NCBI GenBank assembly: GCA_016192995.1
Contig: JACPTB010000001.1
Location: forward strand, 129,110 to 193,109
Reading direction: 5' to 3'
Length of the DNA stretch: 64,000 bases
DNA from: Candidatus Woesearchaeota archaeon
GTDB taxonomy: Archaea > Nanobdellota > Nanobdellia > Woesearchaeales > DSVV01
Shown here: in pieces, positions 3-38,892 of the stretch
Numbering within the stretch: position 1 is the stretch's first letter
How the letters are laid out: the number at the start of each line of letters is the position of its first letter
Notes under the pieces: generated by a model
What the model was told of the DNA's origin: nothing
What the model saw: only the letters and a program-made list of their open reading frames with translations
Databases searched by the model: none
Position numbers and translations under genes: made by a program

Positions 3-980
3 TACCCGTCTGCCAGTGAACAAGGTTCTCAAAGTGAACAGGGTTCTCAAATTGCTCAAGAGAATGGAAGTATTGATGTCTCTTTTTGCCCTTCATCAGC
101 TTGTGAGGATGTTTTTGTTGACCTTATTACCAACGCCCAAGAAACAGTTTATTGCGCATTCTATGACTTAGATAACAGCGCAGTAATACAATCGCTTGCT
201 AACAAAAGTAGAATTATAGATGTTAGGCTTGTTATTGACAGTGATAATGTTCATAATCAAATATATGGAGAAGGCATCGTTGTTGATACCAAAAAGCAAT
301 ATATGCATAATAAATTTTGTATTATTGACCATACTACTGTTATTACCGGGAGCGCAAATCCAACAGATAATGATTTTTTTAACAATAACAATAATATTCT
401 TGTTTTTGCATCACAATATCTCGTAAGCAATTATGAACATGAATTTGAAGAATTATGGTCCGAGCAATTCGGTAAAGGTGAAGCAGTCAAATATCCTGAA
501 ATTATCATTAATAACATAACGGTTGAAAATTATTTCTGCCCTGAAGATGACTGTGAAGAACATCTTTTAGAAACACTCGATAAAGCAGAAAACAGCATTT
601 ATTTTATGACGTTTAGTTTTACTTCTGATAACGTTGAGGAAAAGTTATTGAATAAATTTAATCAAGTGAATACAACAGGCAAGACCATTGCTATTAAAGG
701 AGTTTTTGAAAAAAGATCGCAAAGCAAGGACAGCGCTTTTTTTAGCTTGAATAAAACAGGAATTCCTGTTATCTTTGATAATAATCCTAAAACTATGCAT
801 CACAAAGTGTTTATTATTGATGAAAAGACTGTTATTACAGGAAGTTATAACCCAACAAAAAGAGGTACTGAAGTTAATGATGAAAATATGATTATTATTC
901 ATGATCCAACTATAGGGCGACTGTATGTAAAAGAGTTTAAGAGAATATATACTCCGATGATTAGCGAGAACGACACATAA
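3..980 (+). CDS. Phospholipase D-like HKD protein (5' partial)
   Basis: The frame is open from base 3 to the stop at 978-980, so the true start lies before the window. Two HKD motifs mark the PLD superfamily: HNKFCIID...GSANP (about residue 101) and HHKVFIID...GSYNP near the C-terminus. Each fits HxK(x)4D followed by GSxN, so both halves of the active site are present. The family includes phosphodiesterases acting on phospholipids and bacterial Nuc-type nucleases. Cysteine pairs near the start of each half and a Q/S/G-rich N-terminal linker suggest an exported or envelope protein; that is an inference. It could equally be a nuclease. Fold confidence is high, substrate is unknown. Confidence 0.85.
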   Translation, partial: YPSASEQGSQSEQGSQIAQENGSIDVSFCPSSACEDVFVDLITNAQETVYCAFYDLDNSAVIQSLANKSRIIDVRLVIDSDNVHNQIYGEGIVVDTKKQYMHNKFCIIDHTTVITGSANPTDNDFFNNNNNILVFASQYLVSNYEHEFEELWSEQFGKGEAVKYPEIIINNITVENYFCPEDDCEEHLLETLDKAENSIYFMTFSFTSDNVEEKLLNKFNQVNTTGKTIAIKGVFEKRSQSKDSAFFSLNKTGIPVIFDNNPKTMHHKVFIIDEKTVITGSYNPTKRGTEVNDENMIIIHDPTIGRLYVKEFKRIYTPMISENDT

Positions 981-1049
981 AGAACAAACATCAAGGGGGA
1001 CATTTCATCGTAGTTGTTTTAGTTAGTCGTAGGGGGTGGGTGTTCGTCG

Positions 1050-1652
1050 TTATTTTTTCCAAACTATATGTCCATTAATATTATTTTTCTCATATACTTG
1101 TAGAACATCTTCACAGAATTTAATCAGTTCTTTATCGTTGTTTGCTTTTGCAAGTTCATAAAGTCGTATAAACATTCTTTTTCCAGTTTCAGTTTGTTTA
1201 TAGTATTTCTTTTGAAAATTATGTTGTGCACAGAGAGTTTGTCCATTAGAAATTTCAGCTTTACCGCCTAATTCTTTTGGTTTAATATGGTCTGCTTGAA
1301 TTTCAATACCATCTGCTTTTCCTCTACCGCAGATTACACATCTATAATTATCTCTCTTAAAAATTTCTTCTTTTTGTGCGGGTGTAAAATCTTCAAGTTC
1401 TCTATTATGTACGAAATCAGGGTCATATTTGTAAACTCCTTTATTTATTTTGATAAGTTGTCCTTCTTGCGATAATTTTCTAATTGCTCTGTCAGGATCT
1501 CTAAATACTTTTCCTATTCTTTTTTTAAACTCAGCAACAACCCAGTCAACAATTTCAGGATGAGGTATCTCTCTCTTAGGATGTTTCTTATAATATTCCA
1601 TAATTAAATCAGCTTGCGACATTTCTTCCTTAGTTTTTGCCATTTGTATCAT
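1050..1652 (-). CDS. HNH endonuclease, probable type II restriction enzyme
   Basis: The 200-residue protein has an N-terminal winged-helix-like half (about 10-75; basic, includes DPDRAIRKLSQEGQL) and a C-terminal HNH nuclease core: CVICGRG, then ADHIKPKELGG, then N...LCAQHN. The two cysteine pairs probably hold a structural zinc and the H-N-H residues bind the catalytic metal. It starts 14 bases after the stop of a DNA methyltransferase on the same strand, the usual type II restriction-modification arrangement, so it is inferred to cut the site that enzyme protects. An ATG nine bases further in (1643) is an alternative start. The recognition sequence cannot be read from the protein. Confidence 0.8.
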   Translation of the reverse strand: MIQMAKTKEEMSQADLIMEYYKKHPKREIPHPEIVDWVVAEFKKRIGKVFRDPDRAIRKLSQEGQLIKINKGVYKYDPDFVHNRELEDFTPAQKEEIFKRDNYRCVICGRGKADGIEIQADHIKPKELGGKAEISNGQTLCAQHNFQKKYYKQTETGKRMFIRLYELAKANNDKELIKFCEDVLQVYEKNNINGHIVWKK

Positions 1653-1666
1653 GCCTTATTGTTTGT

Positions 1667-2605
1667 TTAATTGACAGTAACATCGAGCAATTTCTGAGTA
1701 GGATTGAAATCCGTTCTTTTTGTAGTGATGGGTTTTTCTTTCTCGACTTTCATTTCATGTAATTTCTTTTCAAAAAGATTTGCTTCAGCAATTATCCTTT
1801 TTTTTGCTATAGCACAATATTTTACATCAACATCAATTCCTATTGATTTTCTATTATTGGAAACAGCAGCTATTAATGTAGAACCACTTCCCATAAAAGG
1901 ATCTAAAACAACATCTCCCACAAAACTAAATAATTTAATACATCTTCTTGGTAACTCAACGGGAAACGGTGCAGGATGACCTCCAGCTCCTTTTTTACTT
2001 TGCCCTTGAAAAGTCCATAAACCATTAGTCCAATCCATAAATTCTTGTCGAGTTATATCTGACTCTTTCTTTTCTTTCTTTTTCCAATCCTGCTTATACA
2101 AAATTAGGATTAGTTCTACCGGTGCAATTACATAAGGAGCAGATGCACTTAGCCAAGAACCCCAAGCAGTTCTTCTTGAAATATTTCCTTCATTCCAGAT
2201 AATTGTAGAATGATACTTATAACCTATTTTTTTTGCAATAGTTGTAAAATCTGCACCAACACTCTGCTGACCATCTTTATTTTTATCTAAGGGAATATTT
2301 AGACATAATCTCCCATCATCTTTTAACCATTCAAAACATCTGGACAACCATTTATGACTAAATTCTAAATATTTTTCATAACTTATTTTGTCATTATGAG
2401 AATTATATTTAATATCAACATTATAAGGTGGAGATGTAACAATTAAATCAACACTATTTTTAGGAATTTTATCTGTTGAAAGTACATCTTCGCAGACTAT
2501 CTTCGATTTTTCATGATTAAAAAAAACTTCACCCTTCATAGAGATAGTAGAATTGTGAGTATTTATTAATGTTTGGCTTTTTAAATCGGAGATTTTCCGC
2601 TCCAC
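1667..2605 (-). CDS. Site-specific DNA methyltransferase (beta class)
   Basis: Motif IV, TSPPYN, comes first (about residue 57) and the AdoMet-binding motif X/I region, DPFMGSGST, lies near the C-terminus (about residue 235). This order defines beta-class amino-methyltransferases. SPPY is more typical of N4-cytosine than N6-adenine enzymes, but that is not decisive. The protein would protect host DNA from the HNH nuclease encoded just downstream (1050-1652). The longest frame begins at a GTG (2605). An ATG at 2539, still well before motif IV, is a credible alternative start. The 215-base upstream gap is richer in G+C than its surroundings and holds an imperfect inverted repeat built on TTCGTGTT. 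Confidence 0.88.
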   Translation of the reverse strand: MERKISDLKSQTLINTHNSTISMKGEVFFNHEKSKIVCEDVLSTDKIPKNSVDLIVTSPPYNVDIKYNSHNDKISYEKYLEFSHKWLSRCFEWLKDDGRLCLNIPLDKNKDGQQSVGADFTTIAKKIGYKYHSTIIWNEGNISRRTAWGSWLSASAPYVIAPVELILILYKQDWKKKEKKESDITRQEFMDWTNGLWTFQGQSKKGAGGHPAPFPVELPRRCIKLFSFVGDVVLDPFMGSGSTLIAAVSNNRKSIGIDVDVKYCAIAKKRIIAEANLFEKKLHEMKVEKEKPITTKRTDFNPTQKLLDVTVN

Positions 2606-2821
2606 CCCCGTGTTCGTTTTCGTCCGTTTAGAAATATCCTCCTCTCAGTCGTAGTCGCTAAAAATTATTGAACTCTCGGAATTCGTGTTTAACGCCCTGA
2701 GCGAACATAGCTTTAACACGAACCTACTCTCGCACTTTAGGCTTCACACTATTGTTTATTATTTTTACTACTAAATATCATAACTTTTATATATCTTCTT
2801 GTAGAAATTAGACCGGTAACT

Positions 2822-3534
2822 ATGACTGCAATCCTCCTTGTTCATGGGTTAAGCGCTACTAATCAAATATTTGATGACTTAGAAAAGCGATTAAAACGAA
2901 AAAAATACATAGTATATAACCCTTTATTACCTGGACATGGAACTGTACCCGAAGATTTAACAAAAGTTTCCTATCAGCATCTTGTTGATTTCTTGAAAAG
3001 GTATATTAAACCAATTATCAAACAATATAAACAAGTAATAGTTATTGCTGAATCATTTGGCGCAAATATTGCTCTTGATGCTGTTGCTAAAAAATATATT
3101 AAAGGAATGATTTTCCTCGGAACTGCGCTTAAAGTGCGAAAAGAATGGTTATACCAAGGAATAATCTCTTTTCTCTAAACATTTTATCCTCATTATTATT
3201 ATAAAAAAGAGAAAAATCATCCTCGTGTCATTAAAGGCACCACCTATTCGAAAATACCTTTAAGAGCGATAGATATGTACTTTACCAAAAGTAAAAATTT
3301 TCACGAAAGAATTAAAACTTGTTTTTTTCCGATGTTATTTTTATTTGCAAAACACGATTTTCTCATTGACACAGGGTGGAAAAAGGATTTTCTTAAACAT
3401 CACCAAAATAGCCATTTCAGTTTGTTGAATATGATACCAGAAGACACGCAATATTAGAAAGCGAGCATCAAACAGAGATTACAAATAAAATATTGAGTTT
3501 TATAGACAAAAATGATATTTCAACTACTTTTTGA
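2822..3534 (+). pseudogene. Alpha/beta hydrolase, broken by a stop and a frameshift
   Basis: Two disrupted pieces form one recognisable lipase/esterase of the carboxylesterase/monoglyceride lipase type. The N-terminal part (2822-3178) has the oxyanion HG motif (LLVHGLSA), PGHG, and a nucleophile elbow AESFGAN. A TAA at 3176-3178 interrupts it. The same frame continues past the stop into PRVIKGTTYSKIP and the acid-residue strand LFAKHDFLID. Near 3440 the frame shifts, and the new frame gives RHAILESEHQTEITNKILSF, the typical C-terminal catalytic-histidine segment, ending at 3534. Ser, Asp and His are therefore all still readable across the breaks. The end overlaps the convergent hepT-like gene by 11 bases. 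Two sequencing errors are possible but less likely than decay. Confidence 0.8.
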
Positions 3535-3943
3535 GAGTTTTTAAATATTCCTTAATCTCATTTTTAAATTCTAGAAAATCCTTTCTATTCTCCATAATAT
3601 TATCATAAACTCTTTGATCCTCTATCTTAGTATAATGGTGGATTAACACATTCCTAAATGCTTTCATGTTTTTAAGTTTAAGCGCCATCTCTTCAGAAAT
3701 AATTTTTTTTTCATATAGCGTCTTAAACATATTGTCTTCATCAGAAGGCAGACCAAGTTTTAATTCTCTAATAATTGCTTGGCAAACATCAATACAAACC
3801 TCAATCAATAATTGCAATAACCTTTCACAATATCTCTTTTGTTGAGAGACATACTCTTGATAAGATTCAGGAAGATGTTCTTCTAATTCTTGGTTATATT
3901 GATCTAAAAAATCAAGCAATGAGGTAATTCTCTTTTTATTCAT
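3524..3943 (-). CDS. hepT: HepT-like HEPN-domain RNase toxin (DUF86)
   Basis: The protein is about 139 residues from the ATG at 3943. The frame is open further upstream, but that ATG fits the family and the 8-base overlap with the preceding nucleotidyltransferase gene (ATGAATAA). The HEPN signature R-x4-H-x-Y is present as RNVLIHHY near residue 113. In characterised HepT/MntA pairs, HepT is an RNase that MntA neutralises by adding AMP to the Tyr of this motif; the Tyr is present. Length, gene order (antitoxin first) and overlap all match such modules. The target is not predictable. Confidence 0.88.
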   Translation of the reverse strand: MNKKRITSLLDFLDQYNQELEEHLPESYQEYVSQQKRYCERLLQLLIEVCIDVCQAIIRELKLGLPSDEDNMFKTLYEKKIISEEMALKLKNMKAFRNVLIHHYTKIEDQRVYDNIMENRKDFLEFKNEIKEYLKTLKK

Positions 3944-4352
3944 TAAGAACAGCCTCCAGATAACCTTCATAAATGGGTTTAAAATGTTCATAATCACGAA
4001 GTGTTCCAAAATAAAGATCATACAAGGCATCTTCATCTTTACAGAAGATGATTTTCCCTTCATTGATTATTGGTATTCTGATGTACAATGGAAGATGCTG
4101 AAAGATTTGAACGTCATACTTTTCATTATGATGAGCATATTCTAACAATTTACCTGATAATTCATAAGAAGTATACTTATGAGGCTTCAGAAAAATACAA
4201 ATATCAATATCGCGGGAATATTGTTCTCCTCTTGCAACACTGCCGAATATGCTTACAGCTAATACCTGTTTATCTTTTTTTGCTTTTTCAATGATTTCTT
4301 GAATGACCTTATTCTGCATCATTACATTGATTTTGATCTTATCTGTTTCCAT
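3936..4352 (-). CDS. mntA: MntA-like nucleotidyltransferase antitoxin
   Basis: A minimal nucleotidyltransferase of 138 residues. The signature GSVARGEQYSRDIDI (G-S-x-A-R-G-E ... D-x-D) starts near residue 37 and supplies the two metal-binding aspartates. It sits directly upstream of, and overlaps by 8 bases, a HEPN toxin gene, the standard MntA-HepT layout. MntA proteins AMPylate the HEPN toxin on its RX4HXY tyrosine. The start ATG at 4352 lies about 50 bases from the divergent mutL start, so the two genes share a short promoter region. Confidence 0.88.
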   Translation of the reverse strand: METDKIKINVMMQNKVIQEIIEKAKKDKQVLAVSIFGSVARGEQYSRDIDICIFLKPHKYTSYELSGKLLEYAHHNEKYDVQIFQHLPLYIRIPIINEGKIIFCKDEDALYDLYFGTLRDYEHFKPIYEGYLEAVLNE

Positions 4353-4404
4353 GGATTATCGCTATATCTAAAACATTATAAATATTTGGGTTTTCCCCTC
4401 ATTC

Positions 4405-6102
4405 ATGGGTGTTATAAAAGAGCTTGATCAGGACCTTATAAATAAAATAGCAGCTGGAGAAGTCATTGAACGGCCTGCTTCAGTAGTCAAAGAATTAGTG
4501 GAAAATGCTATTGATGCGCATGCAAGGACCATCATTATTTCGGTTATAGAAGGTGGAAAGTCACTGATTAAAATATCTGACAATGGTTGCGGCATTTCCT
4601 CTGATGAAGCAGAACTTGCTCTCAAACGGCATACGACTTCTAAAATCGAAACGCTCAATGATTTGTTTAACATAAAATCTCTTGGTTTTAGGGGGGAAGC
4701 GCTTGCAAGCATTGCTTCAGTAAGCAGCATGGAACTTGTTACTAAAACTGCTGAAGAAGATACTGGCACCTATCTTGAAGTTGTTTCTGGAGATATAGTG
4801 CAGAAAAAATCAGTTGCAGCCAACAAAGGCACTGCTATTTCAGTGCATAATCTTTTTTTCAATGTTCCTGCTCGAAAACAACATCAAAAAACTATTGCCA
4901 CTGAATTTAGGTATATTCTTGAATTAGTAACACACTATGCACTGATTCATCCTGAAATCAATATTACTTTGATTCATAATGAAAAAGAAGTGCTTAATGC
5001 TCCTTCCACCGAAGATGTCCTTACCAATATTGCTTCAGTATATGGAAGAGGATTATGCGGAGATTTACTGCCAGTTGATTTTTCTTTTTTTGATCTCCAT
5101 GTTTCAGGATTTATTTCAATTCCTGGAAAAGCGAGAAATGATAAGAATTTCCAGAGCATTTTTGTTAATAAGAGATTTGTCCACAATTATCTTATTCAGA
5201 AAGCAGTCTATGACGGTTATGGGAGCTTATTATTTCATGGAAAACATCCTGTGTTTGTCTTGAATGTAACTATTGATCCAAAAAAAATAGATGTTAATGT
5301 GCATCCAACAAAAGCGCAAATCAGAATAGAAAAAGAATCAGATGTTTATATCAGTGTTAAAAATGCTGTGATAAAAACATTGAAAGAACATAATCTTGTT
5401 CCTGAAATGTTCAGCAATAAGCAAGATTTTCCTCGCGACATCAATGCAAAACTGGTTATTGATCCATTCCCTCAAGAAGAACAGCTGTACCTTGATGAAG
5501 ATGTTGATCTGCTCAGGAAAAAAGAAGTGGGGATAAGAATATTGGGGAGAATTTATCAGACCTTTATTATTGCTGAAGATGATAAAGGAATGCTGCTCAT
5601 TGACCAGCATGCTGCACATGAAAGAGTTATGTTTGAAAAATTTATGCAGCAATATCAGAATAAAGCTATTAAAGTACAGCAATTGCTGCAGCCTATTATG
5701 CTTGAATTAAGCGCTTTAGAAACTGATGTGGTTATTAATAATATAAGCATTTTAGAGAACTGTGGAATTTTTATAGAAGAGTTTGGAAAGAATACGTTTC
5801 TTGTTCGAAGTTTGCCAAGCATTTTTGCGCGGCAACAAGATAAAAATATAGTTTTAGCAATAATTGGTGAATTAGGAAGCGGCGAACTTAAAACCATTAG
5901 CTTAGTTAAAGAAGAACGAATTGCGATGGCAGCATGCAGAAGCGTTGTTAAAGCGCATGATATTCTTGAAATGCCCGAGTTGTATGCATTATTACAAGAA
6001 TTATTCAGCTGCAAGAATCCTTATTCCTGCCCTCATGGAAGACCTTCTATGATCCATTATAGTTTGTATGATTTAGAAAAGAAGTTTAAGAGAAGAGTTT
6101 AA
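4405..6102 (+). CDS. mutL: DNA mismatch repair protein MutL
   Basis: A 565-residue GHKL ATPase. N-terminal motifs: NKIAAGEVIERP, VKELVENAIDAHA (catalytic Glu), DNGCGI, and LGFRGEALASI, a full ATP-binding module. The C-terminal domain carries the endonuclease motif DQHAAHERVMFE (DQHA-x2-E-x4-E, about residue 399), then ACRSVVKAHD and CPHGRPSM, which complete the metal site of nicking-type MutL. It should therefore nick DNA during mismatch repair without MutH. No mutS lies in this window. MutL is patchy in archaea and usually explained by transfer from bacteria. A TATA-like TATAAATATTT lies about 25 bases upstream. Confidence 0.96.
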   Translation: MGVIKELDQDLINKIAAGEVIERPASVVKELVENAIDAHARTIIISVIEGGKSLIKISDNGCGISSDEAELALKRHTTSKIETLNDLFNIKSLGFRGEALASIASVSSMELVTKTAEEDTGTYLEVVSGDIVQKKSVAANKGTAISVHNLFFNVPARKQHQKTIATEFRYILELVTHYALIHPEINITLIHNEKEVLNAPSTEDVLTNIASVYGRGLCGDLLPVDFSFFDLHVSGFISIPGKARNDKNFQSIFVNKRFVHNYLIQKAVYDGYGSLLFHGKHPVFVLNVTIDPKKIDVNVHPTKAQIRIEKESDVYISVKNAVIKTLKEHNLVPEMFSNKQDFPRDINAKLVIDPFPQEEQLYLDEDVDLLRKKEVGIRILGRIYQTFIIAEDDKGMLLIDQHAAHERVMFEKFMQQYQNKAIKVQQLLQPIMLELSALETDVVINNISILENCGIFIEEFGKNTFLVRSLPSIFARQQDKNIVLAIIGELGSGELKTISLVKEERIAMAACRSVVKAHDILEMPELYALLQELFSCKNPYSCPHGRPSMIHYSLYDLEKKFKRRV

Positions 6103-15641: not shown

Positions 15642-16298
15642 ATGAAACTAACACTTTTAATAAGGAAACTTGTAGCTGAGAAAAACAAGGTTATCGCAGC
15701 TGATACCCTGAAGAACTATTGTAAAGAACTAAAGATTGATTATTTATCTACTATAAAGTACTTGCTGAGGAATAGATATGTTATTCGGATCTTGAAGGGA
15801 ATATTTTACCTGAATTCGTTTGAAGAGCGAAAACTGAAAAAAATAGATATTACGCTTTATGGAGTTTTAAAAGCTGCACTTGAACTAAAAGGAGTAAAAC
15901 ACTGGTATTTTGGACTTGAAACTGCATTAAAATTGAACAATGTTACTCATGAATATTTCACGGTTGATTATATTGTAAGTGATAGTTTGTTTAGGTCTAA
16001 ACCTATAACCATCATGGATCACAAAATCAAATTTATTAAAATAAAATCAAGTTTGTTTGGGTTTGGTATATCAAAAACAACTCTCCCTTATTCCGACCCT
16101 GAAAAAACAATTTTAGATATGATTTATTTAGATAAAAATCGTGGATTAAATAACCTTATTATTAAAAATAAAGTTAAAGAATATCTTCATTTGTGTTCTA
16201 AGAAGAAAATTAAAAAATACCTGCTTTTTTACCCAACGACAGTATCAGTTGTTATAAAAGAGGTCTTGCAACCATATGATTCCAAAAGATTTCATTGA
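15642..16298 (+). CDS. AbiEi-family antitoxin/transcriptional regulator
   Basis: A 218-residue protein with an N-terminal winged helix (LKNYCKELKIDYLSTIKYLL, then RILKGIFYLN, the wing). The C-terminal domain has HWYFGLETALKLNNV and SDPEKTILDMIYL, which match AbiEi proteins. In AbiE type IV systems this protein represses the operon and counters the AbiEii nucleotidyltransferase without direct binding. It overlaps the AbiEii gene by 23 bases. The pair interrupts the thyA-folA neighbourhood, suggesting insertion. Confidence 0.8.
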   Translation: MKLTLLIRKLVAEKNKVIAADTLKNYCKELKIDYLSTIKYLLRNRYVIRILKGIFYLNSFEERKLKKIDITLYGVLKAALELKGVKHWYFGLETALKLNNVTHEYFTVDYIVSDSLFRSKPITIMDHKIKFIKIKSSLFGFGISKTTLPYSDPEKTILDMIYLDKNRGLNNLIIKNKVKEYLHLCSKKKIKKYLLFYPTTVSVVIKEVLQPYDSKRFH

Positions 16299-17223
16299 TA
16301 ATATTGGTGAAAAGCTTGGAAATATAAGAAAAGAACTCTTAGAAAAAGACCTTTTGTTACATCTTCTTCTAACAGAGTTGATGAGGGATGACTATTTTAA
16401 AAAAAACTATGTCTTCAAAGGTGGAACATGCCTAACTAAATGCTATCTGGGATATTATAGATTTTCTGAAGATTTAGATTTTAGTTTTATAGCGCAAGAT
16501 CTATTTGAAAAGAAAACCGAGAAGAATATCAGAAAATTATTATCTAAAGAAATAGACATCCTAACAACATTGCTCGATGACAAATGCAAGAAGCTGTCAT
16601 TTGATTACAACATTGATAAAAAAAATAATAAGTATCATGAATTTGGCGGAAGCAATAAGTTTGTTACCTTTAAATTATGGTATATTTCGGTTGAATTACA
16701 AAGAGAAATGTTTATAAAAATACAAATTAATTTTGTTGAAGTTTTTAAGTATCCTTTTAAATCAAAAAATGCAATTTCACTGCTCCACCTACTTTCAGAA
16801 AAAAATAAAAAAGAATTGTTATTTCTCTTTCCTCAGGAAATGAGTTCTTTTAACACAACTATAAAGGTACTATGCTATGATCTCCATGAAATTCTCTTAG
16901 AAAAAGCAAGGGCTATACTAACACGGCAGGCTGTTAAAGAAAGGGATTTTGTTGATCTATATTTTATACTAAGATTTCTTGGAGAAAAAATTAATAATTA
17001 CAAGGTAAATATCATTGAAAAAACAATGTTTATGTTAAACTATGAAAAATACAGGAATAATCTTCTTGAAAATGAACATGTGTTGAAAGCGTTTAAAGAC
17101 TTTCAAGAGAATATTCTTCTTCAGCAAGAACCGCAAGATTTAAAGCTATTTTTTCATACCTTAAAAGAATATTTAATACGTGTAATCCAAGAAATAAAAA
17201 CAAAGGAAAATACAAAAAAATAA
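16276..17223 (+). CDS. AbiEii-family nucleotidyltransferase toxin
   Basis: A 315-residue nucleotidyltransferase. The core reads FKGGTCLTKCY (about 50), then RFSEDLDFSF (GG-x..., D-x-D metal site). Downstream are EILLEKARAIL and KERDFVDLYFI, the K-R...D-x-D-L pattern of the DUF1814/AbiEii family. AbiEii toxins transfer nucleotides to tRNA or other substrates and give phage abortive infection. It is translationally coupled to AbiEi (23-base overlap). The dihydrofolate reductase gene follows 28 bases later with its own GGTGA ribosome-binding site. Confidence 0.87.
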   Translation: MIPKDFIDNIGEKLGNIRKELLEKDLLLHLLLTELMRDDYFKKNYVFKGGTCLTKCYLGYYRFSEDLDFSFIAQDLFEKKTEKNIRKLLSKEIDILTTLLDDKCKKLSFDYNIDKKNNKYHEFGGSNKFVTFKLWYISVELQREMFIKIQINFVEVFKYPFKSKNAISLLHLLSEKNKKELLFLFPQEMSSFNTTIKVLCYDLHEILLEKARAILTRQAVKERDFVDLYFILRFLGEKINNYKVNIIEKTMFMLNYEKYRNNLLENEHVLKAFKDFQENILLQQEPQDLKLFFHTLKEYLIRVIQEIKTKENTKK

Positions 17224-21245: not shown

Positions 21246-21342
21246 AGCTATTTCTTAGTAAAATGGTTTATATATTTTGTTATTAATGAGTTGTCAAAAA
21301 CAACTCATTACGTTTATAAATAATAACTGATTTTCTATCTCA

Positions 21343-23103
21343 ATGAGTGACCTTGAAGCAGTTCTTGCAGAAACAACAAACAGAGCTCAATCTGATTTTA
21401 TTACCGAAGCATTGGAAAGAGCTCAGCATTTTATTAATCACCCTTCTGATGATATTAATGTTTATCAAGCTGAATATGAAGTAGTTGTCAAAAATTTAGG
21501 TGTTGCTCATCATGTATTATCCACTAATGGCACTGAAGAACGAGCAGCCCAATTGGAAGAAGTCGTAAGAACTAGCGCTTATTTGATGGAGGCAGCAAAA
21601 CTGCATATGATGATCGCTTCTGTTAAAGTACAGCCTTTACCTGAAACTGGAAATATCACTGGAGTTCCATTAATACAGATACTTTCTGCCGATGGCAAAC
21701 CAGCAACACTTTATTGTGTGGATGATTTACGAACAAAAGGATTAGATGATGAGCAAATAGTGGGAGTGTTAGATCATCCTTTAACACAGCGTGTTGGTTG
21801 CCTGCCTGATGATCCAAGATTAAGATATGCTATCCCTGAGAGTGTTATTACAGAACTTGTTGGTACATCCAAGAGAGTTACAAGTGTTTCTCCTCTGCTT
21901 CCCCTTGTTTCACCTCCAGAATCATCATCTCCTACGCTAGATACTACTATTACTGATGTTGTAAGATTTGGTATTTATACTGCTGGAACTCTCTACGATC
22001 TTTTACAAAAAAGAGGTATAGATTATTATGAGAGAGGTGTGTTTAAACTTCTCATGGAAATGACTGGTCGAGGAATGGCAAGAAAAGAGTTTGAATTAGA
22101 CGCAAATGGTGAGCAATTCAATTTTTTTCTCTTAACTGAAGGAGGATTAGCGTATGCAGCTCAACGCGCTTCATTAAATAAACCTAAAAGAGCATTGCCT
22201 GAAATAGCTGATACTGCATTAATAAAAAGAGTAATAAAAGAAACTCAGTTATTGGGAGAAATGCCTTTGTTAAATGGTAAAAAGGTTGCAGAATTTTGTG
22301 GACCATATTCTCTAAAAACTGGCGATCTCAGAGGAAATTTAATAAGAGGAGCAGATTATGTTAGCGGCAAAGTATTTGGTTATGTTTTATCTGATCGTCT
22401 TGTAGATGCTATTAATAGACATTGTTCTACACCAATAACTGAGCAAGATCTTCTTAAAGTTGTAGGATTAGATCCTGCAACAAAAGTTCTTCATGTTGAA
22501 TATAAAAATGGTATGTTAGAATTAAAGCTTACCCAAGATGCAGAATATAGAAAAGGTAGAGGTCGTGATACCAAAACTATTTTAGAAACAAATCCCACCT
22601 TGTATTTAGCATTAGGGATAGAAGAGAGACTGATTAAAGAAGGACTTTATGATCCAAAAAGTGGAAAAATCAAATTTCCAAATAAGGGTAGTAGTCAATA
22701 TACCTTTGATGATCGACTCTCTGAGAGGTTAGTTACCAGTTGTTTACGAAAAACTATTGGTGCTTTAGCACAAGCAAGAAAGAAACATCAGGACTACTTT
22801 CGTGTTTGGGGAGGATATTGGTTTTGTGCAGAAGACATTTTATTTCTGTTTGCTTGTAATTTTATTAATGGAAAAGATACAAGTCAGAGAAAGATATACG
22901 GACTTAATGAACTATCAATAATGTTTAGTAGATCAGAAACTGATATTAGTACTCTCATTCAACGTGATTATTTTAAACCTGATGAACATAAAAAACCTGC
23001 AACTAAAGTACGGCAGCGTTTTAGAGAGGCTTATAACCTAGTTGTTGATGCTTTGAAAGAAGGCAAGAATGTTGCTGAGAAGTATAATCTTTCAGTGCCA
23101 TAG
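21343..23103 (+). CDS. Hypothetical protein, 586 residues, possible HTH segments
   Basis: No known family recognised. The first 100 residues look helical. A central stretch around 205-270 (FGIYTAGTLYDLLQKRG ... FFLLTEGGLAYAA) could be a winged helix. Near the C-terminus YGLNELSIMFSRSETDISTL resembles the HTH of MerR/excisionase proteins. A nucleic-acid-binding role is a guess. It lies upstream of the sigma-70-like gene on the same strand, separated by the DUF433 locus. TTTATAAATAATAA lies about 27 bases ahead of the ATG. Confidence 0.6.
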   Translation: MSDLEAVLAETTNRAQSDFITEALERAQHFINHPSDDINVYQAEYEVVVKNLGVAHHVLSTNGTEERAAQLEEVVRTSAYLMEAAKLHMMIASVKVQPLPETGNITGVPLIQILSADGKPATLYCVDDLRTKGLDDEQIVGVLDHPLTQRVGCLPDDPRLRYAIPESVITELVGTSKRVTSVSPLLPLVSPPESSSPTLDTTITDVVRFGIYTAGTLYDLLQKRGIDYYERGVFKLLMEMTGRGMARKEFELDANGEQFNFFLLTEGGLAYAAQRASLNKPKRALPEIADTALIKRVIKETQLLGEMPLLNGKKVAEFCGPYSLKTGDLRGNLIRGADYVSGKVFGYVLSDRLVDAINRHCSTPITEQDLLKVVGLDPATKVLHVEYKNGMLELKLTQDAEYRKGRGRDTKTILETNPTLYLALGIEERLIKEGLYDPKSGKIKFPNKGSSQYTFDDRLSERLVTSCLRKTIGALAQARKKHQDYFRVWGGYWFCAEDILFLFACNFINGKDTSQRKIYGLNELSIMFSRSETDISTLIQRDYFKPDEHKKPATKVRQRFREAYNLVVDALKEGKNVAEKYNLSVP

Positions 23104-23652: not shown

Positions 23653-25572
23653 ATGACAACCCTCGCAAATCATCCTTATGCAAACAACGTTCCCTTAGTT
23701 ATGCTTCTCGATTCAGATAAAGTAAGAAATGGTTTATCAAAACTTAATCCGTATGCAATATATACTGCTGATCAACTGCACGAATTAGGATTATTTGCTG
23801 AACAAATGCGTTTTGATAGAAACTTAGTAAGAAATAGGAAAGGAGAATATCTTGGCAGTCTTGTTGCAGTTTATATGAGGAGAGAACATCCGGCATTAAG
23901 TGGTCAGCAAAAGAATTCATGGGAAGATAACGGAGTGCTTGTTTCAACCTTAGCAAAATTCCTTGATGTAGATAAAGCAATACTTGAAACACAACTTGCT
24001 GAACTTGAACAACAACAAAAGCAGCAACCATCCAATAATGGAAACTATAATGGAAAACTTCCTTTTTCTGTTCATAGTATTCCACCACCACTTTACGTTT
24101 TAGAAGAAGTTATACATCATTCATATATTCCAATTGTTGCAGAAAGAGCTCTTCAAACTAAATCAAAGGTTGTCCAAGATTATAAACCTAAACCATCTAT
24201 CGGAGAACGTAGTACTCGTACAGCAACAGATACTGCGAATGAAGATGATGAAGAAGTAACGCAGAGGATTCTAAAAGATCGAAAACGCAGTAATCCCATT
24301 ATTTCACTTGTTATGAAACAATTAAGAAACGGAAGATTATTTACTCGAGAAGAAGAAGTTGAAGAATTTAAAGAGTTTGATAAGTTAAGAACTGACTTTT
24401 TAGTTTATGCTTATACCCTTAATCCAGGAGAATTTTTTGAGTTCTGGAAAACCTATGTTAGTTCAGATATTGTTGATGCTGATGGTGAAGTTCATAAAGC
24501 TGCGCACAATAGCGCACGCAAGGAATTATCTAGCGTTGTTGATCAAGCACATGCAGAATACCAGCAATTAATGCAAGGAGAAGAACCTGCTTTTGAACAG
24601 CATAATCAACTATTTAAAAAAATAGTGCGTTCTTCTTTAGGCAATGGTTATGAACAATTATCAGCTTATTATCGTCAAAGAGTTGAAACTGAAATAAAAA
24701 ATGCTCAAATAGCTGTAGATTCTCAATCTGATGCTGATGATCTTGATCCATTGCCCCTAGTAAAACCAATAGGTATTACTGGCGAACAACTTGAGACATT
24801 AGAAGGAAAATTTACTGAGATTATTGATCAGAAAAGATACATTGCAGAAGCAAATCTCAGGTTAGTTGTTTCTATTGCTAAAAAATATCAGAGAACTCAT
24901 ACACAATTTCTTGATTGTATTGCTTATGGAAGTGAAGGATTGGAAACAGCTGCGTATAGATTTAATTATGAACGTGGGTATAAATTTTCAACCTATGCTA
25001 CGTGGTGGATTAGACAGGCAATCACCAGAGGAATAGGCAACACTGAACGCACCATTAGAGTTCCGATTCATATGCTTGAACATATACGTGCTATACAAAG
25101 AACTAAACGCAGTTTATTCCATGAATTGGGCAGGGAACCAACACTTCAAGAGATAGCAAAAAAGTTAGAAGTTAATCCAGAGAGAATTGAAAAAGCATTA
25201 ATGTCAAAAAAAGATGTCGTTTCACTCGAACAGCAAATTGGTGAAGAGGAAGGAGATACCTTAGGTGTTCAGATTAAAGATCCTCATGCAGAAACAGATG
25301 CAATGTCACAAAGAAGTTCTATTCGGAGAATGATAAAGAGATTATCTGCTGCTGCTAAATTAAGTGAAAGAGAAATGAACGTATTATATAACCGATTTGG
25401 TATGGAAACTGAAGGAGAAAAACAAACATTACAAGCGTTGGGGGATGCGGATGGTGTTACTAGGGAAGCGATCAGGCAAATAGAAGCAAGAGCATTGGAA
25501 AAGTTAAGAAAAGCGGTACGTAATTTCAAAAAAATAACAGGATTGGATTTTCATTATGGTGAAGATGATTAA
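23653..25572 (+). CDS. Sigma-70 family protein with long N-terminal extension
   Basis: A 639-residue protein. Residues 1-390 are unlike known sigma regions, mostly helical, and include a Q-rich linker near 135. Residues 398-475 match sigma region 2: NLRLVVSIAKKY, GYKFSTYATWWIRQAI (443-457) and RTIRVPIHMLEHI. Region 3 follows (LGREPTLQEIAKKL), then region 4 (LSEREMNVLYNRFGM at 570; VTREAIRQIEARALEKLR). Compared with E. coli RpoD, the -10 contacts Q437/T440 (here Q455/T458), the melting WW pair and -35 contacts R584/E585/Q589 are kept. The core-RNAP contacts in region 2.2 are not: Q406-E407 become A424-Y425, N409 becomes S427 and M413 becomes E431. D403 (here D421) is kept. Archaea lack sigma-dependent RNAP, so its role is unknown. 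Confidence 0.93.
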   Translation: MTTLANHPYANNVPLVMLLDSDKVRNGLSKLNPYAIYTADQLHELGLFAEQMRFDRNLVRNRKGEYLGSLVAVYMRREHPALSGQQKNSWEDNGVLVSTLAKFLDVDKAILETQLAELEQQQKQQPSNNGNYNGKLPFSVHSIPPPLYVLEEVIHHSYIPIVAERALQTKSKVVQDYKPKPSIGERSTRTATDTANEDDEEVTQRILKDRKRSNPIISLVMKQLRNGRLFTREEEVEEFKEFDKLRTDFLVYAYTLNPGEFFEFWKTYVSSDIVDADGEVHKAAHNSARKELSSVVDQAHAEYQQLMQGEEPAFEQHNQLFKKIVRSSLGNGYEQLSAYYRQRVETEIKNAQIAVDSQSDADDLDPLPLVKPIGITGEQLETLEGKFTEIIDQKRYIAEANLRLVVSIAKKYQRTHTQFLDCIAYGSEGLETAAYRFNYERGYKFSTYATWWIRQAITRGIGNTERTIRVPIHMLEHIRAIQRTKRSLFHELGREPTLQEIAKKLEVNPERIEKALMSKKDVVSLEQQIGEEEGDTLGVQIKDPHAETDAMSQRSSIRRMIKRLSAAAKLSEREMNVLYNRFGMETEGEKQTLQALGDADGVTREAIRQIEARALEKLRKAVRNFKKITGLDFHYGEDD

Positions 25573-32276: not shown

Positions 32277-32323
32277 ATTAACCATATGCATTAACCATAT
32301 ATAAGAATGGCGATGCCGCGATT
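32277..32323. repeat. 47-bp direct repeat, copy within tRNA-Met 3' end
   Basis: Second copy, overlapping the true tRNA gene (32308-32323). The two copies are 129 bases apart. The 82 bases between them code nothing and hold a hairpin (GTACAAC / GTTGTAC near 32236-32262). Confidence 0.8.
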
Positions 32324-32402
32324 TGAACGCGGGACATCTACGTATCTCAGTAGATAACCTAGTTATGAGCGTAGCACTCTAACCAGGCTGAGTTACATCG
32401 CC
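32308..32402 (-). tRNA. tRNA-Met (CAT) with intron
   Basis: The acceptor stem GGCGATG pairs fully with CATCGCC, discriminator A. D-arm CTC...GAG is present. The anticodon stem CTACG/CGTAG carries loop CTCATAA. A 20-base insert lies after position 37 (canonical archaeal intron site), expected to form a bulge-helix-bulge. T-arm CCGCG-TTCAAAT-CGCGG. The CTCATAA loop fits elongator Met; tRNA-Ile(CAT) is the alternative. CCA is not encoded. Confidence 0.88.
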
Positions 32403-33773: not shown

Positions 33774-33935
33774 GGCTGTGTAGAAAATCTCGGCATAGCC
33801 TCGGTTTTGGTGCCGTGATTATCTCACTTAGTTATAAGAAGGAAAAAATTCCCATTGTAATTTCCTTTTTTCCCACGTATTAATTTGAAGGATAATCACC
33901 AGCATGGCACCAAAAACTACATTTTCTACACAGCC
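33774..33935. mobile_element. Palindromic element P3
   Basis: 162 bp with 15-bp terminal repeats GGCTGTGTAGAAAAT. A perfect 9-bp target duplication CTTTGATAC flanks it (33765-33773, 33936-33944). Inner arms GGTTTTGGTGCC... and ...GGCACCAAAAAC with GATTATC/GATAATC match P8. Its right end reads into the GGDEF gene and supplies the last codons and TAG stop of that protein. Confidence 0.85.
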
Positions 33936-35230
33936 CTTTGATACATAACTAATCTATTTCTACCTTTATGCTTTGCTTGGTAAAGTGCAGCATCGGCTTT
34001 ACCTTTCATTGTTTCAGTTAATATTCTAATTGGTGCAGAATCACAATTACGTAAGAATGCTTCAGGAGTTGTATACTCTCGTTTAAGCCTAGAACTTAAA
34101 CGTTTATATGCATGAGGAACTGCTTCAGCTAGTTCAACCATCCGTTGAAATTGTTTTGGTGTACCTGTATAATCTTGACGTAAAAATTCTTTCTGAGGTG
34201 GACTTGCAGTTACAAACTGAGCTAAATAATCTCTTCCTTCTCTTGAATATAACACCTTCATTTCAACGTCAAAATCACTTGAATGTACTGCACCTTCACT
34301 TAAAGTAATCGGAGGTGTTCTTCCTTTTGGCGTTTCAATGCCTTGTTGCGTGTCAGCTGTTACCTTTTGTCTTGCTCTGTCAGCAACAGCATATACATGA
34401 TCTCTTCCTATATCAAAATACACTACTAATTTTTCTTCTCCGCCTACACGTATAACAACTTCATCTTTTGGTCTAGAGTCATTACCTGACCTACTACTTG
34501 ATCTAAGAGAGTTTGCTGTTGCTTGTAATGCAATATCTCCAATATCATGGCCGAATTTATCATTATAATCTTTAAAATGATCAATATCAGTCATTACTAA
34601 AGCAAATAAAGGTGATCTTTGCTCTGTAAGTGCAGTTTTTACTTCTTGGTCAAGACGTGGTAGTACTACATTTTCCCAATAATGTCTATTAGGTAATTCA
34701 GTTAATTGGTCTGTATGAGCTAAGTGAGTGGCCATATCACGTTCTCTTGCTGCTTGATCACGTTGTTGAAGGGCTCGTTGATAGTTAAGGGCATCGCCTA
34801 CTATAGTTCCAATCAAAGCAAAAATTGGTTCGTATGTTTTTCTTTCTCTGCCCATAGTATACAGATGAGCAGTTTGCTTAAGTCCAATAATTGCAGCCTG
34901 TTGTTCGTTATGAGAAACTATTCTTCCAGCTAGATCTTTTGAGTGGTAAATTGTTACAGGTTTATGACAATCATCTATTGGTAATGTTCCTGTTGTTGGA
35001 TCATTAAATACAAGTCTTAAACTGCTGGTTGCATCATATTCTTCAAAAACTCTATTAACATCATTAGCAAGATCTTCTAAAGCTTGGAATCTAGAAATAT
35101 GACCTAATTCAGCCTGCAATTCAGCACTTTGGCTAGTTGTTAATCTACTTAAATCATGTCTTAAGCTAGCATCACGTGCTAATTGTCCTTGTACAAATTG
35201 CTCTAAGTCAAATTCTCTCTTGTTGCCCAT
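33926..35230 (-). CDS. GGDEF-domain protein (degenerate GGEEK), possibly truncated
   Basis: 434 residues. The N-terminal ~150 residues look like a GAF-type sensor (VTIYHSKDLAG, AIIGLKQTAHLYTMGRER). The GGDEF domain starts at HTDQLTELPNRHYW, then DIDHFKDYNDKFGHDIGD, and RVGGEEKLVV near 262: the signature is GGEEK, with Lys where Phe is normal. A ~110-residue insert follows before the typical final ALYQAKHKGRNRLVMYQ. Diguanylate cyclases make c-di-GMP in bacteria; they are rare in archaea and activity here is doubtful. The last three residues and the stop come from element P3. Confidence 0.88.
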   Translation of the reverse strand: MGNKREFDLEQFVQGQLARDASLRHDLSRLTTSQSAELQAELGHISRFQALEDLANDVNRVFEEYDATSSLRLVFNDPTTGTLPIDDCHKPVTIYHSKDLAGRIVSHNEQQAAIIGLKQTAHLYTMGRERKTYEPIFALIGTIVGDALNYQRALQQRDQAARERDMATHLAHTDQLTELPNRHYWENVVLPRLDQEVKTALTEQRSPLFALVMTDIDHFKDYNDKFGHDIGDIALQATANSLRSSSRSGNDSRPKDEVVIRVGGEEKLVVYFDIGRDHVYAVADRARQKVTADTQQGIETPKGRTPPITLSEGAVHSSDFDVEMKVLYSREGRDYLAQFVTASPPQKEFLRQDYTGTPKQFQRMVELAEAVPHAYKRLSSRLKREYTTPEAFLRNCDSAPIRILTETMKGKADAALYQAKHKGRNRLVMYQRAV

Positions 35231-38787: not shown

Positions 38788-38892
38788 CGCCGTCGCCCGG
38801 ATTTGAACCGAGATACCCTTGCGGGAACAGGATAGCAGGTTTCAAAACATGAACTTCCAGTCCTGCGCATTACCAGATTGTGCCACGACGGC
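38788..38892 (-). tRNA. tRNA-Ser (GGA) with intron
   Basis: Acceptor GCCGTCG/CGACGGC, discriminator G. The anticodon stem CAGGA/TCCTG carries loop CTGGAA plus A38, anticodon GGA. A 21-base insert lies at 37/38, the canonical archaeal intron position. The long variable arm (TTCCCGCAAGGG) is the class II hallmark of serine tRNAs, and G73 fits seryl-tRNA identity. T-arm CTCGG-TTCAAAT-CCGGG. CCA is not encoded. Confidence 0.9.

Follow-up and report, generated by a model that had tools for sequence, protein, structure and literature searches.

A sigma-70 family gene with altered core-docking residues in the chromosome of a Woesearchaeota archaeon

Introduction

In the textbook view, archaeal transcription proceeds without a sigma factor. 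The same position is taken in the available part of a 2026 review, according to which no sigma is needed in archaeal transcription (PMC12993045). Sigma-70 proteins of family fam00359, especially prevalent in Woesearchaeota, were described by Castelle et al. in 2021; the available part of that paper rules out mis-binning and calls the mechanism unclear (PMC8204110). No other paper describing these archaeal sigmas was recognised in the literature searched (subscription papers and preprints excluded). The present study deals with a sigma-70 family protein, here called the window sigma, which is encoded in a stretch of 64,000 nucleotides (the window) of contig JACPTB010000001.1 from a Candidatus Woesearchaeota archaeon. 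The window sigma is read as a divergent RpoD-like paralogue of bacterial ancestry, long resident and diversified in the phylum, and most likely a regulator that binds promoters and has something other than a bacterial-type clamp as its partner; a probability of roughly 0.45 is given to this reading. A sigma in an archaeon has already been published; new are the mismatch between docking residues and RNA polymerase (RNAP) receptor, and the pairing of a canonical and a rebuilt paralogue in one genome.

Results and Discussion

All three sigma regions of the protein scored above their Pfam cut-offs: Sigma70_r2 with 52.6 bits (E 4e-14, cut-off 24), Sigma70_r3 with 63.6 bits (E 1.8e-17, cut-off 25.3) and Sigma70_r4 with 57.6 bits (E 8.7e-16, cut-off 24.1). 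No TFIIB family was detected in the Pfam scan of the window sigma at E <= 0.01. The nearest solved relatives by sequence were bacterial RpoD/SigA (E 8e-60, phmmer against PDB chains). The predicted structure had a mean predicted local distance difference test score (pLDDT) of 64.5, and the 50 Foldseek matches listed for it, searched against the PDB only, were all bacterial sigma chains, those from E. coli sigma70 being aligned over as many as 539 columns. The model of the helical spacer is not independent of RpoD, since the input alignment of the predictor contained bacterial RpoD.

Residues that melt and read promoter DNA were retained. W451, W452, Q455 and T458 of the window sigma (E. coli RpoD W433, W434, Q437, T440) and R604, E605, R608 and Q609 in region 4.2 (RpoD R584, E585, R588, Q589) were all invariant in comparison with 27 bacterial RpoD-type proteins. 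Region 2.2 reads D421-C-I-A-Y-G-S-E-G-L-E. Among the residues that dock on the beta' coiled coil in bacteria (D403, Q406, E407, N409 and M413), D403 alone is kept, and the other four are changed (Q406 to A, E407 to Y, N409 to S, M413 to E). A preliminary description of this DNA, made from its letters, had claimed sigma regions 2, 3 and 4 in an archaeal chromosome, retained promoter-melting and promoter-reading residues, and an altered region 2.2 with D403 kept. Each of these claims was borne out by the domain scores and alignments, and with them the view of a real sigma gene that keeps its DNA-reading residues and has lost the bacterial core-docking ones.

A second sigma gene of the same genome (L001, 537 amino acids) lies on the same contig, about 106 kb from the first, and adjoins a gene that looks by eye like archaeal uL11. 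This sibling keeps the complete DLIQEGNIGLM motif. More widely, Sigma70_r2 matches were found at E <= 0.001 in 127 of 371 genomes of the phylum, which are an even draw from a larger group; 122 were above the cut-off and some of the sigma-positive genomes held two to six matches. The family is spread over 108 of 259 genera, sometimes in tandem copies. From 71 loci, drawn mainly from the best-scoring matches, 73 sigma frames were obtained, of which two duplicates of L019/L113 were dropped and 71 kept, window gene included. At least three of D403, Q406, E407 and N409 were kept in 54 of the 71 aligned proteins; three proteins, the window sigma among them, kept at most one. Per-residue identity to RpoD was 0.92 for D403, 0.83 for E407, 0.77 for N409 and 0.70 for Q406, at a mean identity to E. 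coli RpoD of 0.41 over positions 380-599; for Y430 and W434 it was 0.96 and 0.89, and for Q589 (68 proteins) 0.90. Conservation of the docking residues thus falls within the range of the DNA-reading residues, and it is overestimated for the archaeal family as a whole because the loci were picked mainly from the best-scoring matches. Nor need conservation of these residues mean docking, because region 2.2 substitutions are said, in the available part of a paper citing earlier work, to act mainly through sigma region 2, by way of its fold and allostery (PMC8321222). Rebuilding of the docking face is a specific trait of the window paralogue and not one of archaeal sigmas in general.

A midpoint-rooted tree was built with FastTree from the 71 archaeal sigmas and 42 bacterial proteins, all of RpoD type. 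Of the 71 archaeal leaves, 56 fell into five distinct clades without bacterial members, each supported at 0.80 or higher (27, 14, 7, 4 and 4 leaves), and four further archaeal leaves grouped with the main bacterial clade (support 0.92). The window sigma clustered with L021, L111 and L115 (support 0.90). These neighbours keep three or four of D403, Q406, E407 and N409, so the docking-face changes of the window sigma are derived. The median tree distance was 3.5 among archaeal proteins versus 0.77 among bacterial ones, the smallest archaeal-bacterial distance being 1.07. The archaeal sigma family is real and diverse. Because the deep backbone was poorly supported (0.39-0.78), single and multiple acquisition could not be separated. 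No bacterial donor could be named: among the matches listed (six peptide patterns), the 80 loci kept were RpoD-type genes of many bacterial phyla.

Judged from its sequence, archaeal RNAP looks unable to dock a sigma in the bacterial manner. R275, E295 and A302 of the clamp were all replaced in 70 of 70 A' proteins (45 from sigma-positive and 25 from sigma-negative genomes), with I, T or A at position 275, E at 281, L at 295 and H at 302. These 70, out of 363 genomes with an A' match, are not a random sample: 30 had the best scores, and the other 40 were selected chiefly for the presence of sigma. Five solved archaeal-type A' chains among the matches listed also lacked R275, E295 and A302. Deficient holoenzyme formation of the E. 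coli substitutions R275Q, E295K and A302D is reported in the available part of one paper (PMC8321222), and R281 is given as an interface residue of the sigma32 complex in that of another (PMC10216364). The flap tip is the site bound by sigma region 4; in one pairwise alignment, the genome's own B subunit was 8 residues short at this tip and had no recognisable tip helix, the absence of which is described as common in archaea (PMC8321222, available part). Co-adaptation of the clamp to sigma was rejected, as the coiled coil showed no sigma-linked difference in the 70 A' proteins.

In 165 upstream regions of the contig, A-rich sequence was observed around -36 to -33 from the start codons, followed by T/A-rich, TATA-like sequence around -30 to -23, and the matrix learned from the contig reads AAAACCTTTATAAATA. 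This signal of TATA box and B recognition element (TATA/BRE) stands at a fixed distance from the start codons. Sites resembling TTGACA-N16-18-TATAAT upstream of 190 contig genes numbered 8 in sense and 9 in antisense, compared to 10.1 ± 3.6 in shuffles. Exact -35/-10 sites numbered 39 in 30 sigma-positive genomes, versus 43 for the reversed pattern and 37 for a second control; the corresponding counts in 30 sigma-negative genomes were 31, 32 and 36. Consensus sigma promoters were in excess neither on the contig nor in the 30 sigma-positive genomes, the consensus being that of E. coli, so that a diverged motif would escape.

A possible mode of action can be outlined for the promoter-binding regulator proposed above. 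In a cell whose detectable promoters appear to be of TATA/BRE type, the sigma-2 and sigma-4 modules would still read -10/-35-type DNA, as suggested by the retained residues. The grip on a bacterial-type beta' clamp was probably lost along with the docking residues, and with that grip lost, another surface would have to serve for tethering, repression or competition. Through it the protein may attach to a target complex, or act as a repressor or competitor, and the lineage-specific N-terminal region would be the first candidate for this surface. The intact regions 2-4 with their DNA-contact residues were counted in favour of this proposal, together with the replaced clamp residues, the short flap tip, the docking residues kept by the tree neighbours, the TATA/BRE signal and the lack of consensus -35/-10 sites. 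Several points weigh against it. Target site, DNA binding and expression of the window sigma stay predictions, and the promoter tests would miss a sigma regulon that is small and has a diverged motif. At exactly 17-base spacing the contig count was 6 versus 3.3 in shuffles, too few to judge. Just 39% of upstream regions exceeded the 95th percentile of shuffles for the TATA/BRE matrix, so many promoters are unaccounted for. The upstream region of the window sigma itself scored no higher than shuffles with this matrix (33rd percentile), compared to the 92nd for sibling L001, and the window sigma, being a singleton, could be losing function.

A hybrid holoenzyme, in which archaeal sigmas including the window one dock on the coiled coil of the RNAP clamp through an interface unlike the bacterial one, serve few promoters and compete with TFB and TFE, is regarded as unlikely. 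Conservation of both RNAP-facing and DNA-facing residues in the family (D403 0.92 to Q406 0.70; Y430 0.96) would fit such an enzyme, and proteins normally work in the cell that makes them. The receptor speaks against it, with R275, E295 and A302 replaced and E at position 281 in all 70 clamps and no sigma-linked change, as do the deficient E. coli mutants, the role of R281 and the shortened flap tip; nor was an excess of -35/-10 promoters found. Loss of the basal factors alongside sigma was not observed either. A TFE match was missing in 6 of 127 sigma-positive versus 7 of 244 sigma-negative genomes, using a family that also matches two bacterial controls, and TBP was missing in 5 of 127 versus 8 of 244. 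Replacement of TBP, TFB and TFE by sigma was therefore rejected: the absence of TBP or TFE is not sigma-linked, and the source genome has TFB and a TFE-family match. Rebuilding of the sigma for archaeal RNAP, suggested in the preliminary description, did not hold as a general feature, with the sibling and 54 of 71 proteins keeping at least three of four docking residues and the clamp showing no matching change in sigma-carrying genomes.

Decay of a horizontally acquired gene without function is an improbable explanation. It would account for the lost docking residues, for an N-terminus that is a singleton among the 371 genomes and for the lack of a good promoter of its own (33rd percentile), but hardly for an open frame of 639 codons without a stop or for the many contact residues shared unchanged with bacterial RpoD. 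A passenger would also not be expected in 108 of 259 genera, at times in tandem, nor next to an ileS-like gene in loci of four genera that belong to one family.

Somewhat less probable again is that canonical archaeal sigmas such as L001 keep their bacterial face for the RNAP of a bacterial partner cell, with the window paralogue derived. Conservation of at least three of four docking residues in 54 of 71 proteins, although the cell's own RNAP lacks the matching residues, could be explained in this way. No bacterial beta' was seen in the A'-profile search of the source genome, a draft with gaps in which absence is not absolute; this is concluded because the profile (TIGR02390), which also matches bacterial controls, matched once, to the archaeal A' itself. 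Against a factor acting in trans stand the loss of the docking face in the window paralogue itself, a purely hypothetical export, and the action of region 2.2 substitutions mainly through fold and allostery (PMC8321222, available part). A wider version, in which most archaeal sigmas are cross-domain effectors of a symbiotic archaeon acting on the RNAP of partner bacteria and the window paralogue has been re-tuned to another partner, is more doubtful still. The observations leave it that archaeal RNAP takes sigma via a novel interface, or that these sigmas work without archaeal RNAP, or that they act on the polymerase of another organism. Because the docking face is canonical in one paralogue of this genome and rebuilt in the other, the question of the partner is directly testable by binding assays.

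The source genome (1.6 Mb, 16 contigs, stated completeness 99.6%) carries the window within a 324-kb contig. The genes for archaeal RNAP A' and B are on the same contig, where further frames match E. coli rpoC and rpoB. Composition of the window sigma gene fits the contig, with a GC content of 0.356 versus 0.339 ± 0.029 for 170 genes and a third-position GC content of 0.19 versus 0.24 ± 0.044; composition, the A' and B genes and the lack of a second A'-profile match also count towards a long-resident regulator. EF-1 alpha and aEF-2 of the window are of the archaeal kind, which confirms for the two genes tested the earlier claim that the other information genes of the window are archaeal. Mis-assembly or mis-binning of bacterial sequence, which the preliminary description had named as one finding that would overturn it, has the bacterial type of the gene within a 16-contig draft as the sole point in its favour and is scarcely credible, given that the 324-kb contig bears two sigma genes as well as A', B, EF-1 alpha and EF-2 of archaeal kind, that the composition fits, that 127 of 371 genomes have Sigma70_r2 and that mis-binning was also ruled out by Castelle et al. 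(PMC8204110, available part). Contamination is very unlikely. Both TFB and a match to the TFE family were detected in the source genome. TBP was not found despite the stated completeness, and neither was MCM, in a search without a positive control. MCM, named by eye, lies beside TBP in four of five family relatives looked at. With TBP and its usual neighbour both missing, the joint absence is probably due to one assembly gap and not to loss.

The N-terminus sets the window sigma apart. A 278-residue N-terminal query matched the source genome alone among the 371 genomes (E <= 0.001), no Pfam family was found in residues 1-216, and none of 72 further archaeal sigma frames matched the N-terminus, which matched itself alone among the contig's open reading frames. 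The N-terminal block of the predicted structure, with a pLDDT of 29-73, is too poor to interpret. An unfamiliar N-terminal region of about 390 residues had been claimed at first; this stands for residues 1 to about 212, which have no detected relative, and not for about 213-241, which are region 1.2-like and followed by a helical spacer. Absence of the gene from close archaeal genomes, the other finding that the preliminary description had said would overturn it, was half borne out: none of the other genomes among the 371 carries a gene with this N-terminus, though many carry other sigma genes. Relationship of the N-terminus to the open reading frame at 21343-23103 was not convincing (local score 47 versus 35.3 ± 5.5 in shuffles, reached by 13 of 300). 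A phage origin was rejected: tblastn matched 187 phage records out of 50,697, with less than 80% of the query covered in every case, and no phage relative of the N-terminus was seen among the 20 tblastn matches listed, all of which start at residue 343 or later.

Features of the window

Table 1. Parts of the window sigma gene, with positions in the window.
Feature	Position	Strand	Remarks
Sigma-70 family gene	23653..25572	+	639 amino acids, no internal stop
N-terminal region, residues 1-212	23653..24288	+	Low-confidence, mostly helical model; no Pfam family, no relatives detected
Region 1.2-like segment, residues ~213-241	24289..24375	+	Alignment with RpoD and other archaeal sigmas; model helices 215-225 and 232-256
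Helical spacer at the place of the RpoD non-conserved region, residues ~242-391	24376..24825	+	Model helices; Foldseek alignments
Sigma region 2, residues 398-462	24844..25038	+	Pfam; -10 recognition/melting residues kept
Altered region 2.2 docking motif, residues 421-431	24913..24945	+	DCIAYGSEGLE replaces DLIQEGNIGLM
Sigma region 3, residues 476-550	25078..25302	+	Pfam
Sigma region 4 with -35 helix-turn-helix, residues 568-620	25354..25512	+	Pfam

A conserved sigma neighbourhood was not found; the 2-5 kb loci held no family-wide partner. Sigma loci lie beside a synthetase gene (ileS-like, read by eye) in four genera of one family, and in L023 and L031, from two genomes of one related genus, the sigma gene stands between a PLD-like gene and mutL. 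In the window, a PLD gene and mutL lie about 3.4 kb apart (303-6102), with a DNA methylase and other open reading frames but no sigma between them; the MutL (4405-6102, +) is full-length with its C-terminal domain (TIGR00585, 537 bits). A further recurring protein, by eye resembling a small sigma of extracytoplasmic function type, was noted in loci L110, L118, L129, L142 and L144, outside the matches of the core search.

Beside the sigma gene, a 586-residue orphan protein is encoded at 21343-23103 (+), for which Pfam, NCBIfam, PHROGs and PADLOC all gave no match at E <= 0.01. An inverted repeat with perfectly matching 10-bp arms (AATGAGTTGT/ACAACTCATT), 5 bp apart, is located at 21285-21309 between divergent genes, directly upstream of a strong TATA/BRE box before the orphan gene. 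The 9-bp-arm core of the repeat occurs once in 320 kb of the contig with up to two mismatches allowed, and the repeat looks like an operator. An AbiEii-type nucleotidyltransferase toxin family protein is encoded at 16276-17223 (+), and the preceding gene (15642-16298) is, at a guess, its antitoxin. Cyclic di-GMP enzymes are unusual in archaea; a GGDEF diguanylate cyclase domain (Pfam, 93 bits) was identified in a 434-residue protein encoded at 33926-35230 (-). Two tRNA genes on the minus strand (32308-32402 and 38788-38892) are 95 and 105 bases long, which suggests introns or long variable arms.

Comparison with known systems

TFB/TFIIB resembles a sigma as an initiation factor using the RNAP clamp (PMC3223566), and the TFB of the source genome shows a weak Sigma70_r4 match of 23.9 bits. 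The window sigma differs from it in having neither a TFIIB match nor cyclin repeats in Pfam. MzaA, the sigma-like protein of the MZA anti-phage system, shares with the window sigma a long N-terminus before the sigma regions, and its NCBIfam model NF041931 aligns over residues 191-624. However, the score was 225 bits versus a cut-off of 800, and the PADLOC match for MzaA was limited to residues 397-626. The MutL of the window gave a weak MzaB match in general protein scans, where no search was aimed at other MZA genes.

The window sigma resembles the fam00359 sigmas of DPANN and Woesearchaeota in being a sigma-70 protein that occurs together with TFB in an archaeal genome; it differs in its altered docking face and unique N-terminus, fam00359 being known from the available part of the paper by presence and not by anatomy (PMC8204110). 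The best sequence matches were to RpoD/SigA, the group 1 sigma-70 factors, with which regions 1.2, 2, 3 and 4 are shared. Identity was 37-52%, mostly in regions 2-4, in the 80 bacterial loci kept among the matches listed, and the scores stayed under the NCBIfam equivalog cut-offs (TIGR02393, 235 versus 354 bits; NF004208, 257 versus 555 bits). In contrast to RpoD/SigA, the window sigma has lost the docking residues, carries 212 unrelated N-terminal residues and resides in a host with an archaeal RNAP.
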